Shown here: positions 19,368 to 26,733 of the stretch, piece by piece
Position numbering within the stretch: position 1 is the stretch's first letter
Layout: each line of letters starts with the position of its first letter
Origin: Thermodesulfobacteriota bacterium
GTDB lineage: Bacteria; Desulfobacterota_D; UBA1144; Nemesobacterales; CSP1-2
Direction of reading: 5' to 3'
Length of the DNA stretch: 38,568 bases
Assembly: GCA_036397855.1 (NCBI GenBank)
Contig: DASWID010000125.1
Location: forward strand, 1-38,568
Made by a program: the position numbers and the translations under genes
Notes under the pieces: generated by a model
Seen by the model: the letters and a program-made list of their open reading frames with translations, nothing else
Databases searched by the model: none
Told to the model about the DNA's origin: nothing

Positions 19368-19934
19368 ATGAAAAAATGGCTCAATTTTACATCCGTTCCT
19401 ATACTTGCAGTTATCATCCTGCTAATGTTTCACCTTTATTCTGCCGAGAGCAGGGTTAAAGGGCCGTCTCAACCAATCTTTTTTAGTCACAAAATCCATG
19501 CCGGAGATAACGAGATCCCTTGCCAGTACTGTCATAGCTATGTTGAAATTTCAACTATTCCCGGCATTCCTTCAGATCAAAAGTGCATTGGATGCCACCT
19601 TTTTATCATAGGTAAGGATGAGGATTATAAGTATGATGGTGGATCGATTAATATCAAAAATGAGATCGAGAAGGTAAAGGGTTACTGGGATCGAAATGAA
19701 CCAATCCCATGGGTAAAAGTCACTTTTGTGCCAGACTTTGTTCATTTTAATCATAAACGCCATGTACGCCGTGAAATAGAATGTAAGGTTTGTCATGGTG
19801 AGGTTCAAACAATGGATGTAGTTTATCAGGTGCAAAAGTTTAGCATGGGGTTCTGCGTCACCTGTCATCAGGAAAAAGCTAGGGACGCTCAGGAATTGAC
19901 TATGCTTAAGGATTGTTTGACCTGTCATTATTAA
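19368..19934 (+). CDS. actA: Alternative complex III subunit ActA, pentahaem cytochrome c
   Basis: First gene of the ACIII operon. This complex is an analogue of cytochrome bc1 that oxidises quinol and reduces cytochrome c or an oxidase. The 188-aa protein has one N-terminal membrane/signal helix (about 9-25) and five CxxCH haem c sites: CQYCH, CIGCH, CKVCH, CVTCH and CLTCH at the extreme C-terminus. FFSHKIHA and FNHKRHV supply likely distal His ligands. The five-haem count and gene order match known ActA. The stop is 12 bp before actB, so translation is probably coupled. Confidence 0.93.
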   Translation: MKKWLNFTSVPILAVIILLMFHLYSAESRVKGPSQPIFFSHKIHAGDNEIPCQYCHSYVEISTIPGIPSDQKCIGCHLFIIGKDEDYKYDGGSINIKNEIEKVKGYWDRNEPIPWVKVTFVPDFVHFNHKRHVRREIECKVCHGEVQTMDVVYQVQKFSMGFCVTCHQEKARDAQELTMLKDCLTCHY

Positions 19935-19946
19935 TTTGGAGACGAA

Positions 19947-22925
19947 ATGCCTGAGAAGAAAGAGGGTGGTATTAACGGTATCAAAAGAAGGGATTTTCTA
20001 AAAATAATTGGAGTTGCGGGAGGAACTGCGGCCGCTACCGGTTGCTCTTCTGACCCGGTCGAACAGTTAATCCCGTTTGTTATTCCTCCATATGGCATAA
20101 TTCCAGGTGTTCCCAATTGGTATGCTACAACCTGCAGAGAATGCCCAGCTGGTTGTGGGACCCTTGTCAAAAATCGTGAAGGAAGGGCTATTAAGGTAGA
20201 AGGTAATCCCAAGAGCACCGTCAGTTACGGTAAAACATGTGCAAGAGGTCAAGCTGCTCTTCAGGGGCTTTACAATCCTGACCGTATCCGTTCTCCCCTT
20301 GTAAAGACCTCTTCCGGCAAGCTACAACCCTTGGGGTGGGAGCAAGCTGAAAAGGTTTTATTAGATAAAATTCAAGAGCTGCTTGATCAGGGCAAGGCTC
20401 ACAAGATAGTTATTATTACTAACAATGTCACGGGTACTCTTAACGATCTCATAGATGAATGGATGAATGCACTTGGCGGGGGTAAACATATAGTTTATGA
20501 AACCTTTGCACACGAACCTATTAAAGAAGCAAATAAGATTACCTTCGGGGTCGATAGTATTCCATCCTACGAGATTGAGAGAGCAAAGTACCTGCTTTCG
20601 TTTGGCTCAGACTTCATTGAGACATGGCTTTCACCCGTAGAGTTTGCCAATAAGTTTAGTCAGATGCACAGCTACAAAGATAAAAGCAAAAGTATGGGCA
20701 AGTTTGTTCAAATTGAACCGAGATCCTCGATTACAGCATCGAGTGCAGATCAATGGGTGGCCATTAGACCAGGTACTGAGGGATTTCTTGCCCTGGGGAT
20801 TACAAATTTGATCTTAGATAGTGGCAGGGCCTCGATAGCAAGTGGAGAAGCCGCTAGGCTTAAAAATCTCGTCGGTTCCTACACACTTGATAAAGTTTCT
20901 ACAATTTGTGATATACCGAAAGATACCATAGTTGAAATTGCAAAAGATTTTGTTGAGTTAAGTCCTAGTCTTGCGATCGGAGGAGGGGCTGCATACACAA
21001 CTACTAATGCTACACAGACCCTTTCTGCAATAAATATCCTGAACTATGTTGCGGGCAACATCGGTGATACGGTTAACTTTGGAGATACGCTTACCATCGC
21101 AAATTCAAATTCATTTAGTGAGATTACATCTCTCGTGGAATCGATGAAGAACGGAGATGTTGAACTTCTTTTTATTTATAATGTTAATCCTGTATTTACG
21201 TTACCTGAGGTTTTGAAATTCGAAGAAGCAATAATGAAGGTGCCCTTCGTCGCGAGCTTCTCGAGCTTTATGGATGAAACGACAGAGCATGCCAGTATTA
21301 TCCTTCCTGACAACACACCACTTGAAAGCTGGGGTGATTACATTCCAAAGGGAAGTGTTTATGGATTGATTCAGCCAACAATGAGTGCCGTTTTTAATAC
21401 TAAATCCACCGGAGACGCGATTATATCTATCACGAAAAAAATCAATGGACTTGAGAATCAATTCACTGCTAATAACCTCTATGAATACCTGCTAGAGTCG
21501 TGGAGGAAGATTCATTCGAGGATTGCTTCACAAAAGGATTTTGAAACATTCTGGGTTGAATCGGTAGAGAATGGGGGGGTTTTTAGGGAACTTCCTCCAT
21601 TACAAGTCCAACTAACCAATGAGGCTTATAGTATCGATTTCTCGGACCTTCAGCCAGAGATAAAAGGTGATGGCGAATTGTATTTTATACCTTTCCCATC
21701 ATATAGATATTATGATGGCAGGGGGGCAAATAAGCCTTGGTTACAGGAGCTTCCAGATGCCCTGACGACCGCAGTGTGGGATTCATGGGTTGAAATCCAC
21801 CCCGATACTGCCGGTAAAATCGGGATAAGGGAGGGTGACTTTGTCTCAATTGAATCAAAATACGGTAGCATTGAAACGCAAGCATATATATATAAAGGTA
21901 TCAGGCCCGATACAATTGCGGTTCCACTCGGCTTAGGTCACAAGAGCTATGGAAGATACGCAAAAGACAGGGGTGTGAGTCCAGTCAAGATCCTGCCTGC
22001 AGCTATAGATAAGAGCTCTGGGGGATTTGCATGGCTTACCACCAAGGTAAATGTATCTAACACTGGAAAAAGGGAACAATTAGTAATGACACAATACACA
22101 ACGGCTCAGCATGACCGCAATATAGCATTGGCCACCACCCTACCCGAGCTAAGAGGAAATGGCGGGGAGAATCATCAACAAGAGGATGACAATGTTGATC
22201 TGTATCCGCCCCGGAAATATCTAACCCACCGCTGGGGAATGTCAATCGATTTATCGAAGTGTACTGGTTGTGGGGCATGTGTTACCGCCTGTTACGCGGA
22301 GAATAATGTGCCCTTTGTCGGGAAGGAACAGGTTGCGAGAAGGCGTGAAATGTCTTGGATCAGGATTGAAAGGCATTATGAGGAAAAAGATACCAGTCAC
22401 GGGTTCAATACTAGATTCATACCGATGCTATGTCAGCAATGTGGTAACGCACCATGTGAGCCGGTATGCCCAGTGTATGCTACCTACCATAACCCTGAAG
22501 GGTTGAATGCGATGATATACAATCGTTGCGTGGGTACCAGGTACTGCTCGAATAACTGTCCTTATTCTGTAAGGAGGTTTAATTTTTTTACTTACCAATG
22601 GCCACAGCCACTTAACTGGCAACTTAACCCGGATGTCACCGTTCGCACAAAGGGGGTTATGGAGAAGTGCACTTTTTGTGTCCAGAGGATTAAATACGTG
22701 CAAAATATTGCTAAGGATGAGAATAGGGATGTCAGGGATGGTGAGATAACGCCGGCATGTGCACAGGCTTGTCCTACCGAAGCGATCGTTTTTGGTGATC
22801 TTAAAGATGAAAATAGTAAGGTAGCCCAACTCTCAAATGAGGGGAGGGGTTATAAAGTGTTGTCGAATCTAAATACACAACCATCGATAACATATCTAAA
22901 AAAGGTTTACTGGGATAAAGCATAA
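19947..22925 (+). CDS. actB: Alternative complex III subunit ActB, molybdopterin-oxidoreductase-like plus Fe-S domain
   Basis: A 992-aa periplasmic electron-transfer subunit. A Tat-type signal (KRRDFLK, R14-R15) is followed by Cys33 in ATGC, which could be lipidated. Residues about 55-720 resemble bis-MGD molybdoenzymes, and in characterised ACIII this domain carries no molybdenum. An N-terminal CxxCxxxC-x27-C (63, 66, 70, 98) is retained. The C-terminal ferredoxin-like domain carries clusters: C772-xx-C-xx-C-xxx-C782, C829-xx-C-xxxx-C-xxx-C841, C861/C867/C871, C908-xx-C911 and C938-xxx-C942. That is enough for four Fe-S centres. Stop and actC start overlap (TAATG). Confidence 0.94.
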   Translation: MPEKKEGGINGIKRRDFLKIIGVAGGTAAATGCSSDPVEQLIPFVIPPYGIIPGVPNWYATTCRECPAGCGTLVKNREGRAIKVEGNPKSTVSYGKTCARGQAALQGLYNPDRIRSPLVKTSSGKLQPLGWEQAEKVLLDKIQELLDQGKAHKIVIITNNVTGTLNDLIDEWMNALGGGKHIVYETFAHEPIKEANKITFGVDSIPSYEIERAKYLLSFGSDFIETWLSPVEFANKFSQMHSYKDKSKSMGKFVQIEPRSSITASSADQWVAIRPGTEGFLALGITNLILDSGRASIASGEAARLKNLVGSYTLDKVSTICDIPKDTIVEIAKDFVELSPSLAIGGGAAYTTTNATQTLSAINILNYVAGNIGDTVNFGDTLTIANSNSFSEITSLVESMKNGDVELLFIYNVNPVFTLPEVLKFEEAIMKVPFVASFSSFMDETTEHASIILPDNTPLESWGDYIPKGSVYGLIQPTMSAVFNTKSTGDAIISITKKINGLENQFTANNLYEYLLESWRKIHSRIASQKDFETFWVESVENGGVFRELPPLQVQLTNEAYSIDFSDLQPEIKGDGELYFIPFPSYRYYDGRGANKPWLQELPDALTTAVWDSWVEIHPDTAGKIGIREGDFVSIESKYGSIETQAYIYKGIRPDTIAVPLGLGHKSYGRYAKDRGVSPVKILPAAIDKSSGGFAWLTTKVNVSNTGKREQLVMTQYTTAQHDRNIALATTLPELRGNGGENHQQEDDNVDLYPPRKYLTHRWGMSIDLSKCTGCGACVTACYAENNVPFVGKEQVARRREMSWIRIERHYEEKDTSHGFNTRFIPMLCQQCGNAPCEPVCPVYATYHNPEGLNAMIYNRCVGTRYCSNNCPYSVRRFNFFTYQWPQPLNWQLNPDVTVRTKGVMEKCTFCVQRIKYVQNIAKDENRDVRDGEITPACAQACPTEAIVFGDLKDENSKVAQLSNEGRGYKVLSNLNTQPSITYLKKVYWDKA

Positions 22926-24259
22926 TGAGCCAAGATTCAACATTGACTTATTCGAAGGTAAATGAAGACGTAATCAGGATGCTTGATAAACCTACCTTTA
23001 AGTGGGTTGCTTTGTTTCTTCCTACATTGGCGTGCGTTGGATTCGGACTATTCTGCTTTCTTTACCAGGTCTATACTGGCTTGGGAGTTGCCGGGTACAG
23101 ACATCCGGTATTTTGGGGAGTCTATATAACCAATTTTGTATTTTGGGTTGGGATCGCACATTCTGGAACCCTTATATCTGCGATCCTCTATCTATTCCGG
23201 GCGAGATTCAGGATGTCAATTTATCGAATAGCAGAGGCGATGACAGTTTTTGCGGTGCTCACCGCAGGTCTCTTTCCAATCATTCATCTGGGACGTCCCT
23301 GGAATTTTTACTGGCTATTTCCATATCCTAATCAGCGTGAAATCTGGATAAATTTTAAGTCTCCTTTGATCTGGGATGTCTTTGCAGTCAGCACCTATTT
23401 AACAGTGAGCGCTACTTTCTTTTTTGTCGGCATGATACCGGACATAGCGGCGGTCAGGGATAGGGTAAGAGAAGTTCCCAGAAAAATCATCTATACAATT
23501 CTATCTTTGGGATGGAAGGGTTCTAACTGGGAATGGTTACACTACACCAGGGCTTATCTATTTTTTGCGGCCTTTGCTACTCCGCTTGTTCTTTCGGTTC
23601 ATAGCGTTGTGTCCTGGGACTTCGCAATGGCAAACCTTCCGGGTTGGCATACTACGATCTTTGCCCCATATTTCGTGGCAGGTGCTATTTTTTCTGGTCT
23701 TGCTCTTGTAATTTCTCTAGCAGTTCCTATAAGAAAGCTATTTCATCTGGAGGAATATATTACTCTCGATAATTTTGAAGGAATGGCCAAACTTATCATT
23801 TTTACGTCGATGATTGTAACTTATGCATATGCTGCGGAATTTTTACTGGCCTGGTACAGTGGGAATCCTGCTGAATGGGGCCAGTTTAAATACAGGGCAA
23901 CCGGTGATTATGCACTCTTTTACTGGATTATGGTCTTTTGTAATTCTGCTGTTCCAATCGTTCTTTGGTTTAAGGGTGTAAGGAGAAATATTAAGGCCCT
24001 GTTTGTAATCTCGATATTCATTAATATTGGAATGTGGTTTGAAAGGTTCAACATAATAGTGATCTCACTTTCACATGGGTTTGAGCCAGGCGCTTGGGGT
24101 ATTTATAAGCCTACTTGGGTTGAATTGGGAATCACCGTCGGCAGCTTTGCCTGGTTTTTCATGTTCTTCCTAATATTCATAAAAACACTTCCCGCTATTT
24201 CTATCGCTGAGATGAAAGAAATACTTCCAATTCCAAGGAAGGAGGCAAAAGCACGATGA
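22925..24259 (+). CDS. actC: Alternative complex III subunit ActC, NrfD-like membrane protein
   Basis: A 444-aa NrfD/PsrC-like integral membrane protein with about ten predicted helices. It is one of the two quinol-interacting cores of ACIII. Typical features: YQVYTGLGVAGYRHPVFWGVYITNFVFWVGIAHSG near the start, ILYLFRARFR, LGRPWNFYWLFPYPN, and the loop SWDFAMANLPGWHTTIFAPYFVAGAI. FERFNIIVISLSHGF lies near the end. It overlaps actB by one base and actD by four (ATGA), so the three are translated together. Confidence 0.95.
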   Translation: MSQDSTLTYSKVNEDVIRMLDKPTFKWVALFLPTLACVGFGLFCFLYQVYTGLGVAGYRHPVFWGVYITNFVFWVGIAHSGTLISAILYLFRARFRMSIYRIAEAMTVFAVLTAGLFPIIHLGRPWNFYWLFPYPNQREIWINFKSPLIWDVFAVSTYLTVSATFFFVGMIPDIAAVRDRVREVPRKIIYTILSLGWKGSNWEWLHYTRAYLFFAAFATPLVLSVHSVVSWDFAMANLPGWHTTIFAPYFVAGAIFSGLALVISLAVPIRKLFHLEEYITLDNFEGMAKLIIFTSMIVTYAYAAEFLLAWYSGNPAEWGQFKYRATGDYALFYWIMVFCNSAVPIVLWFKGVRRNIKALFVISIFINIGMWFERFNIIVISLSHGFEPGAWGIYKPTWVELGITVGSFAWFFMFFLIFIKTLPAISIAEMKEILPIPRKEAKAR

Positions 24260-24768
24260 AACCCGATCAGGGTGTAGTTGGAATTTATAGCTATTTGGAT
24301 ACAACAATCGAAACTATAAAGAACCTTCGGACAGCTGGTTTTAAGAACTTTCGTGTTTTTTCACCATTCCCTTGTCATGAGTTAGAGGAGGAACTTGATC
24401 AACCGGAGAGTATAGTTCGCTTTTTTACTTTGGGTGGTGCCTTGCTTGGCGCTATTTGTGGTTTTTCATTTACCATACTTACTTCTCTCGCTTGGCCATT
24501 AAGCGTAAGTGCAAAACCCATCGTGTCCATTCCTCCATACATGATTATTGTTTTCGAGCTTACGGTCTTAATTGGGTCTCTTTCAACTTTATTGGGTCTC
24601 CTGATAAATTCCCGATTGAGGCGTAATGTACCAAGGGGAGTTTACGACTCGAGATTCTCAGAGGACAAGTTCGGGATTGTTGTTGCTTGTTATAAACACA
24701 ATTTGCCCAAAGTTGAAGAAATTATGAAATCATCAGGGGCGGAAGAAATTCGGCTCGAGGGTATATGA
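24256..24768 (+). CDS. actD: Alternative complex III subunit ActD (DUF3341)
   Basis: A 170-aa membrane subunit. An N-terminal ferredoxin-like cytoplasmic part (GIYSYLDTTIETIKNLRTAGFKNFRVFSPFPCHELEE) is followed by two membrane helices (about 58-80 and 97-117, separated by SVSAKPIVSIPPYM) and a short C-terminal domain, DKFGIVVACYKH. This is the DUF3341 pattern found only in ACIII and related operons. It makes contacts with the ActC core and carries no cofactor. Confidence 0.93.
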   Translation: MKPDQGVVGIYSYLDTTIETIKNLRTAGFKNFRVFSPFPCHELEEELDQPESIVRFFTLGGALLGAICGFSFTILTSLAWPLSVSAKPIVSIPPYMIIVFELTVLIGSLSTLLGLLINSRLRRNVPRGVYDSRFSEDKFGIVVACYKHNLPKVEEIMKSSGAEEIRLEGI

Positions 24769-24801: not shown

Positions 24802-25317
24802 TTGCTTGATGGTTTAAAGATTTATTTTTTACCAATAGTCCTGGTAATGGTTGTTCTTCTGACCGGACGAGCATTTGGTTGGCCCTGGTCGACCGATATG
24901 ATGTATCAGCCCTCCATTAAACCCTATGAAGAGCCACTTCCCTATCCTGACCTGTCAATTACGAATAAAGGAATAAGGGTGGACCCGATAATCCCAAGAG
25001 AAGTGTTTGAAGAAATGACAGTAAATCCGGTTAGCCCGGATAAGGCTTCGCTGGGAAATGGCGAGGTAGTTTTTAAGAATTTCTGTGCACCCTGTCATGG
25101 ACCGGAGGGGAAGGGTGATGGTCCAGTAATTAAAAAGGGGTTTTATCCCGTCAACCTTACTGCGCCACTTACTCAGGGCAGAACGGATGGCTATATATAT
25201 GCTTATATCAGGTTTGGTGGCAAGGTGATGATGCCAAGTTATCGTGAAAGCATCGGTGAACAGGATGCATGGAACGTAGTAAATTATGTGAGAAAACTTC
25301 AGGGGAAACCGAAATAG
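24802..25317 (+). CDS. actE: Alternative complex III subunit ActE, monohaem cytochrome c
   Basis: A 171-aa monohaem cytochrome c. One N-terminal hydrophobic segment (about 5-22) precedes WSTDMMYQPSIKPYEEPLPYP, a conserved ActE segment. The haem site is FKNFCAPCHGPEGKGDG, with the distal Met in VMMPSY. The start is TTG 24802, supported by GGAGGTGA eight bases upstream; no ATG fits. Known ActE proteins are often lipoproteins, but no Cys follows the hydrophobic segment here, so it is probably anchored by an uncleaved helix or processed by signal peptidase I. Confidence 0.93.
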   Translation: MLDGLKIYFLPIVLVMVVLLTGRAFGWPWSTDMMYQPSIKPYEEPLPYPDLSITNKGIRVDPIIPREVFEEMTVNPVSPDKASLGNGEVVFKNFCAPCHGPEGKGDGPVIKKGFYPVNLTAPLTQGRTDGYIYAYIRFGGKVMMPSYRESIGEQDAWNVVNYVRKLQGKPK

Positions 25318-25339: not shown

Positions 25340-26593
25340 ATGGATGATTTAGTAAGAGACGATGTTTTATCCAGGAGGCTTCAAACTCCTAAGTCGGTCA
25401 TATTGATACTCTTGCTGCTTGTGATCATTGGAATAGCGGCCTTTATATCGCGTATATTGGGCCCAAATCCTGATGGTGCATGGCAGATTTATCTCGTTAA
25501 TTTCCTGTTTTGGACTGGTGTTGCACAGGCCGGAATAATTTTTTCATGCGCACTTCGTATAACAAATGCAAGGTGGGGGAGGCCACTAATTCGAATTAGC
25601 GAAGGTTTTGGTTCATTTATTCCTGTTTCTTTCATCTTATTGATTATCCTGTTTATAGGTAAGGATCATATACTTCCTTATGCAACTGAGCATTATCACC
25701 CCCCCAAAGATATTTGGCTTAGCATCCCCTTTGTAATATTGCGGAACGTTGGCGGGTTCTTTATTCTGATTATCCTGAGCTTCTTCTACGTTTACTATTC
25801 ATTGAGAATGGACCTGGGCGGGATTGGAGATAAACTGCAGGGCATAAGTTCATGGATCGCCTCCGATTGGAAGGGAGACGATGAGAGGGATATGATCTGG
25901 CCTAAAATAAAAAAACTGGCCCCCGCAATAGTGCTCGTTTATGCAGGTGTATTTAGCTTTTTTGCGTGGGATCTTATAATGTCCCTTGATCCTGAGTGGT
26001 TTAGCACTCTTTTAGGTCCCTTTTACTTTGTTGGAAACTTTGTGGCCGCTATTGGTGGTACCATAATTATTTCTTCATTTGTGAGAAAGTATACGGGTCT
26101 TCAGGACTATATTACGAGATTTCAGTATCATGATATGGGGAAACTGCTATTGGGTTTCTCGCTATTCTGGGTTTATCTTTTCTTTTCTCAGTATCTACCA
26201 ATATGGTATGCGAACATGCCGGAAGAGACAGGATTTGTGTATAAACGCGTCCGGGTTGAGCCATTCTGGAGTTTCGGATGGGTTGTTCTATCCTGTTGTT
26301 TTATATTCCCTTTTATAACCCTGTTTTCAAAAACTAGCAAGATTGTTGTACCCATACTCGTGTTCATAGCCTCAGTTTCATTTATCGGCTTTTGGCTGCT
26401 TGAGTATATATTAGTAATTCCTTCGTTTACATCTTATATAAATTTCGGATTAATCCAGATTTTAATTACGCTTGCTTTCCTTGCCGGATTCCTTCTAACT
26501 TTCCTTTTCTTTGTGAGGGTCTTTCCAATAATCCCGTACGGCGATCCCTATTTTGAAGGGAAGGCGAATACTCATAACCATGGAGGACATTGA
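25340..26593 (+). CDS. actF: Alternative complex III subunit ActF, second NrfD-like membrane protein
   Basis: A 417-aa paralogue of ActC with about ten helices, forming the other membrane core of ACIII. RRLQTPKSVILILLLL at the start, NFLFWTGVAQAGIIFSCALRITNARWGRP, FAWDLIMSLDPEWFSTLLGPFYFVGNFV and the His-rich end EGKANTHNHGGH are diagnostic. ATG 25340 follows GAGGAG. The stop overlaps the start of the 46-aa gene by one base (TGATG). Confidence 0.93.
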   Translation: MDDLVRDDVLSRRLQTPKSVILILLLLVIIGIAAFISRILGPNPDGAWQIYLVNFLFWTGVAQAGIIFSCALRITNARWGRPLIRISEGFGSFIPVSFILLIILFIGKDHILPYATEHYHPPKDIWLSIPFVILRNVGGFFILIILSFFYVYYSLRMDLGGIGDKLQGISSWIASDWKGDDERDMIWPKIKKLAPAIVLVYAGVFSFFAWDLIMSLDPEWFSTLLGPFYFVGNFVAAIGGTIIISSFVRKYTGLQDYITRFQYHDMGKLLLGFSLFWVYLFFSQYLPIWYANMPEETGFVYKRVRVEPFWSFGWVVLSCCFIFPFITLFSKTSKIVVPILVFIASVSFIGFWLLEYILVIPSFTSYINFGLIQILITLAFLAGFLLTFLFFVRVFPIIPYGDPYFEGKANTHNHGGH

Positions 26594-26733
26594 TGGAAGA
26601 GCACGTAGACCAAATCACTCAATTTGTAGTTGCTGTACTATGTCTTGTAATTTTGGGCGCAATATCCACTATTGCAGCAGTCGCCCTGTTTGGCCCCGTA
26701 ATTGCCCCTTTGATGAACTATCTCCCCGGGTAA
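26593..26733 (+). CDS. 46-aa single-helix membrane peptide at end of the ACIII operon
   Basis: A small ORF overlapping the actF stop by one base (TGATG), with GGAGG seven nt upstream. It encodes MEEHVDQITQF, then one strongly hydrophobic helix (about 11-36) with small residues (GAISTIAAVALFG), and a short LMNYLPG end. The acidic amphipathic start and single helix suggest a structural or assembly subunit of ACIII or a linker to a terminal oxidase. Overlap and spacing argue that it is translated; function is inferred from position alone. I see no oxidase genes after it. Confidence 0.75.
   Translation: MEEHVDQITQFVVAVLCLVILGAISTIAAVALFGPVIAPLMNYLPG

Follow-up and report, generated by a model that had tools for sequence, protein, structure and literature searches.

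The act operon of Candidatus Dadabacteria, which encodes alternative complex III (ACIII), ends in a small gene located immediately behind actF. Comparison across the phylum shows this small ORF, at the level of sequence, to be a conserved protein-coding gene with its own ribosome-binding site, and we propose that its product, predicted to form a single membrane helix, is probably a small accessory subunit of ACIII specific to the Dadabacteria. In many bacteria ACIII takes the place of the bc1 complex; its subunits have been catalogued from only a few organisms.

The window (the whole stretch of DNA analysed, 38 568 nt) is a contig of a 3.1-Mb MAG that groups with Candidatus Dadabacteria. It carries an ACIII operon on the forward strand in the order actA-actB-actC-actD-actE-actF, followed by the small ORF. 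The actA gene (19368-19934) encodes a pentaheme cytochrome c with an N-terminal membrane helix (Cytochrome_C7 and QrcA-type matches; the translation holds five CXXCH motifs and one hydrophobic segment), and actB (19947-22925) a fused molybdopterin-like and Fe-S subunit, as judged from Pfam and NCBIfam matches. The NrfD-type membrane subunit ActC (22925-24259; PF03916, E=2e-26) is followed by ActD (24256-24768; PF11821, the Pfam ActD family, E=4.7e-43, and ActD chains of the PDB) and by the monoheme cytochrome c ActE (24802-25317, with a TTG start as listed), recognized from cytochrome c matches and its translation. The second NrfD-type membrane subunit, ActF (25340-26593), was assigned from PDB ActF chains, an AlphaFold2 model and Foldseek; a sequence search matched it to ActF chains from four solved ACIII sequences (best E=6.1e-28). 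Gene overlaps also occur elsewhere in the operon (one base between actB and actC, four between actC and actD), an enoyl-CoA hydratase gene lies 111 bases downstream of the small ORF, and scans for promoters and terminators gave nothing above shuffled sequence.

The initial annotation had described the small ORF (26593-26733, forward strand) as overlapping actF by one base, as having its own GGAGG and as encoding one clean membrane helix, and each of these features was confirmed. The actF stop codon TGA occupies 26591-26593 and the ATG of the small ORF begins at 26593, forming TGATG; the GGAGG lies within the last actF codons at 26582-26586, six nucleotides before the ATG; and the ORF runs for 46 codons to a TAA at 26731-26733. 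The annotation's expectation that most gene callers would overlook the ORF was put too strongly: Prodigal calls genes from 90 nt. The 46-aa peptide contains one hydrophobic segment (residues 12-30, mean Kyte-Doolittle hydropathy 2.83), and AlphaFold2 predicts one helix from residue 2 to residue 41 (mean pLDDT 83.9).

The phylum set comprised 57 genomes of one class (G000-G056), taken by inference as Candidatus Dadabacteria. The actF gene is present in 55 of them, and the short ORF anticipated behind actF in relatives was found at this position in all 55; the two remaining genomes (G006 and G034) have neither. This count includes one locus in which the peptide is cut at a contig end (L027) and one with an 84-aa frame (L022), the other peptides being 46-52 aa long. 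All 55 ORFs start with ATG; the one-base overlap with actF occurs in 32, another 19 are adjacent to actF or up to 3 bases away, and spacings of 18, 20, 49 and 105 bases occur in one locus each. Constant position at the actF end together with absence where actF is absent marks the small ORF as a member of the act operon that is inherited with it, and the earlier suggestion of a real subunit is well supported by this conservation, at least as far as sequence can support it, although the peptide shows no similarity to solved ACIII chains. In the locus with the 84-aa frame (L022/L149, genome G037), the usual stop codon has gone and the frame continues into an arginine-rich tail, and in its near relative L021 the peptide stops at LPW.

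A profile of the peptide (A1; 30 members drawn from the same 57 genomes, with L022 trimmed to 49 aa) found the 55 actF-bearing genomes at E 2.6e-11 or better and missed G006 and G034; in four Dadabacteria genomes (G009, G043, G050 and G051) there was also a second, weak match elsewhere (E 0.02-0.05). When a 48-peptide profile was run over 80 actF loci of named genomes in the three forward frames, matches at the actF end were obtained in 21 and none in the other 59. Twenty of these 21 loci are contigs already in the 57-genome set and so are not independent, only L155 being new. One locus, L161 (CACLTT010000002.1), is filed as uncultured Candidatus Hydrogenedens; its actF region is the same as that of G043 (L032), and it is probably misassigned.

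Constraint on the small ORF acts on its protein. Summed Nei-Gojobori pN/pS values for the peptide were 0.217 (14 sequences), 0.083 (12 sequences) and 0.235 (13 sequences), the two shifted frames gave values of 1.07-6.18, and the most variable sites are third codon positions. In matched groups the peptide gave 0.217, 0.083 and 0.264 and ActF 0.152, 0.087 and 0.229 (the third group differed slightly between the two runs, hence the peptide's 0.235 and 0.264). Constraint on the peptide is slightly weaker than on ActF in two of the three groups, yet the values lie near enough together to indicate that selection maintains the small gene almost as strictly. Peptide distances also follow ActF distances closely (Mantel r 0.93, 0 of 9999 permutations, 49 genomes; of the 55 loci L027 was left out by name and the others by a limit on ActF length), as vertical co-inheritance predicts, a result that shows co-inheritance and not contact.

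A purine-rich Shine-Dalgarno match of at least four bases precedes the small ORF in all 55 loci, and it reads GGAGG or AGGAGG in 44 and only GGGG in two. The ActF C-terminus is GGH or GGHH in 45 of the 55 genomes, and in nearly all of those 45 it is the end codons of actF that form the Shine-Dalgarno sequence. Where the junction has been disturbed the signal has been kept: in L010 the ActF end is altered, yet GGAGG and its spacing are unchanged; in L053 ActF ends early and GGAG is still present; and in L015 and L017, with spacers of 49 or 105 nt, AGGAG stands six nucleotides before the ATG. This retention suggests that selection keeps the peptide's own start.

Outside the phylum the small ORF was not found. 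A short membrane ORF was defined by fixed limits on length (30-70 aa), on the position of its start relative to the actF stop (-4 to +30) and on hydropathy (2.0 or more). One was present in 52 of the 55 Dadabacteria loci and in 7 of 2000 shuffles, and the remaining three Dadabacteria loci have an ORF that falls beyond the limits by its start (+49, +105) or its length (84 aa). None was present in the 133 non-Dadabacterial loci, which form two sets sharing no actF regions (0/76 and 0/57). The first began with 80 loci, drawn from 78 of the 93 ActD-bearing outside genomes, and L080, L084, L113 and L137 were dropped because no actF was recognized in them; the second consists of 59 loci minus two with less than 250 nt downstream. 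The A1 profile gave 17 weak matches (E 0.003-0.047) in 329 outside genomes, and these were rejected because they equal the number expected by chance (329 x 0.05 = 16). This absence applies to the loci examined and to what a profile of 47 positions can detect; a remote single helix could be missed. Since the ACIII loci examined outside the phylum do without it, the small ORF would not be needed for the core reaction in general.

Alignment of 48 distinct peptides reveals the features that are shared. There is a single hydrophobic stretch. Glycine occupies column 25 in 41 of the 48 and column 28 in 38, phenylalanine occupies column 29 in 43, and near the end of the helix an invariant glycine is followed by proline in 41; the tail bears lysine in 33 of 47 and tryptophan in 32 of 47. 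The window's own peptide departs from several conserved positions (V19, A23, Y43 and G46). An acidic N-terminus had been claimed, and indeed every one of the 48 peptides has D or E before the helix, but the segment is net negative in only 25; on average it carries 1.9 K/R and 2.5 D/E, and the part after the helix 1.3 and 0.1, respectively. The window peptide had no match in Pfam or NCBIfam at E 0.001 or at E 1. Searches with the 30 A1 members gave scattered weak matches in Pfam, most frequently to OppC_N (16/30, best E 0.0088) and with the lowest single E value for DctM (0.0056, one member only), and in NCBIfam the best E was 0.02; we read these as hydrophobic-helix matches and not as homology. 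Against the PDB, the single sequence gave TatC at E 1.1, which was rejected, as were the chance-like matches of the A1 profile to CD28 (E 0.12) and Gp14 (E 5.4); with CD28 as the best match of this profile, no solved ACIII chain in the PDB resembled the peptide.

We envisage that synthesis of the peptide is coupled to that of ActF through re-initiation at TGATG and that the product would insert into the membrane as a single helix. The helix may lie on the outside of the ActC/ActD/ActF membrane arm, with ActF its most likely partner, and make contact through a face of small residues formed by the glycines at alignment columns 25 and 28. The invariant glycine and the proline that follows would break off the helix close to the membrane surface, leaving a short tail that usually bears lysine and tryptophan. 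By analogy with what is thought of other single-helix respiratory subunits, the peptide might serve to stabilize the membrane arm or to seal it with lipid, and it would take the gene position that ActG holds in other phyla.

A helix at this position could instead be a piece of ActF that has been split off. However, the AlphaFold2 model of ActF has ten long helices (mean pLDDT 89.1, with only the last seven residues below 50), and Foldseek aligned it to the ActF chains of 9ilt, 8k9e, 6lod, 6btm and 6f0k with query TM scores of 0.77-0.81. On this model ActF appears complete, and the peptide as a missing ActF helix is ruled out; the model-based test applies to ActF, and ActC, ActD and ActE were judged by hydropathy only. 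Subunit IIa of the Aquifex aeolicus ba3 oxidase offers a comparison: this 41-aa protein is described as corresponding to a helix that subunit II lacks (PMC3128077). Like the peptide, subunit IIa is a single helix of about 40 aa whose gene lies beside that of a core subunit and remained unannotated until a short ORF was sought (PMC3128077); unlike it, subunit IIa is taken to stand in for a subunit II helix, whereas the peptide replaces no helix of ActF.

The peptide could instead serve only in biogenesis, as an assembly or insertion factor dedicated to ActF or ACIII and absent from the finished enzyme. The position at the actF end, the translational overlap and the strict co-occurrence fit such a factor equally well, as do the tight linkage and the similar constraint. 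On the other hand, constraint so close to that of ActF, and a protein that consists of a helix with only a short end on either side, speak rather for a structural helix. Neither point is decisive, and we consider an assembly factor unlikely.

The protein with which the peptide is most naturally compared is ActG. In 31 of the 76 non-Dadabacterial loci of the first set (among L088-L136), actF is followed by members of one single-helix protein family, behind which, by inspection, a SCO1-like gene often lies. A profile of this family (A3, built from 21 of the 31 proteins) matches 8k9e chain G, named ActG, at E 3.3e-8 over profile positions 52-107, and by this similarity the family is ActG. It is thus found in 31 of 76 outside loci although ActG has been described as specific to Chloroflexus aurantiacus (PMC9316378). 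The A3 profile found no canonical ActG in any of the 57 Dadabacteria genomes at E 0.01; as a control it found 6 of 6 genomes, five of them outside its building set. The actG gene of C. aurantiacus follows actF (PMC3150298), and ActG is described as having a single predicted transmembrane helix and as missing from some act clusters (PMC5928083). The ActG of C. aurantiacus (8k9e chain G) therefore resembles the peptide in its gene position directly after actF, in its one membrane helix and in not being present in every act cluster (PMC5928083, PMC3150298). It differs in that its helix is followed by a conserved region carrying the motif IPI.RAM. This region is missing from the peptide, which ends soon after its helix at 46-52 aa and shows no detectable profile similarity, the two profiles failing to align in hhalign (probability 2.3%). 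The initial annotation had stated that known ACIII structures contain small single-helix components, and this is true of ActG (8k9e_G), but the peptide, as far as profiles can tell, has the gene position of ActG without being detectably ActG.

Could the peptide nevertheless be an ActG reduced to its membrane helix by loss of the periplasmic domain? It shares with ActG the position of the gene and the number of helices, and a family that stands behind actF in 31 of 76 outside loci, matches 8k9e_G and was found in none of the 57 Dadabacteria genomes would be accounted for. A lone helix diverges fast and could hide a distant homology. Nevertheless, the low profile-profile probability and the absence from the peptide of precisely the part of the family that matches 8k9e_G make this derivation improbable. 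Within the preferred reading of an accessory subunit, it is tempting to go further and to suppose that a protein unrelated to ActG has replaced it, having arisen in the Dadabacteria ancestor from sequence just behind actF. The peptide would then occupy the lateral site of ActG on the membrane arm of ACIII, and the disordered Gly-Gly-His end of ActF would be kept mainly because its codons serve the peptide as ribosome-binding site; we offer this extension tentatively, as a possibility. More generally, the link between actF and a single-helix gene throughout a phylum suggests that the membrane arm has a lateral site which unrelated small proteins fill in different lineages.

It had also been suggested that the peptide may link ACIII to its oxidase; the reading considered here is a link to a cytochrome oxidase in a supercomplex. 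Such supercomplexes of ACIII and oxidase are described for R. marinus and F. johnsoniae (PMC5928083, PMC8361435), and COX1 is present in 55 of the 57 Dadabacteria genomes. However, in the 15 genomes in which actF and COX1 lie on one contig they are at least 31.7 kb apart (31.7 to 296 kb), and the contact described for F. johnsoniae is made by oxidase subunit III (PMC8361435). The window's MAG has three COX1 genes, none of them on the window's contig, and no oxidase gene is among the scanned ORFs neighbouring the small ORF. Gene order therefore gives a linker no support, and on gene placement we reject the oxidase link as very improbable, although a physical supercomplex may still exist. Finally, a chance ORF, or a sequence maintained solely for a signal in RNA or translation, would suit a short ORF without a convincing family match, but it is scarcely credible given pN/pS values of 0.08-0.26 in frame and above 1 in the other frames, variation concentrated at third codon positions and an ORF in 52 of 55 Dadabacteria loci against none of 133 outside.

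CydX is a small protein tied to one respiratory complex, and both CydX and CcoM are single helices. CcoM, a 36-aa subunit, is likewise tied to one respiratory complex (PMC10433244), although the complexes differ and no sequence relation of either protein to the peptide is implied. A parallel in another respect is ActH of R. marinus, a lineage-specific extra ACIII subunit described as having no homologues elsewhere (PMC5928083); unlike the peptide, ActH lies in the periplasm, folds for the most part into a three-helix bundle and was recognized through mass spectrometry (PMC5928083). Among the matches listed in searches of the literature on ACIII subunits, no title or start of an abstract described the peptide, and no paper found contained both 'Dadabacteria' and 'alternative complex III'. 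The peptide would appear to be a single-helix accessory subunit of a respiratory complex whose sequence family is not described in the literature searched. Its sequence can be looked for directly by mass spectrometry and compared with any helix left unassigned in future maps.

The small gene has been retained even in genomes of about 1 Mb (family f8). In 35 of the 55 actF-bearing genomes, those of about 1 Mb included, there is no PF13631 cytochrome b match and the small gene is kept, so that ACIII is the only complex III recognized there. In the window's own genome (G000), a COX1 gene and a cytochrome b match lie a few kilobases apart on another contig (C98, 3212-8153), which may mean that the MAG encodes a bc-type complex in addition to ACIII. 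G034, a single contig of about 1.6 Mb, has no ActF, COX1 or cytochrome b match, and its near relatives have ActF and COX1; aerobic respiration may have been lost in G034, or its assembly may be incomplete (91%). In several outgroup loci (L163, L166, L170-L172, L186, L190, L192, L198 and L215), actF is followed by the gene for a membrane-anchored multiheme cytochrome, which is ActA-like by eye and gives a gene order unlike that of the window.
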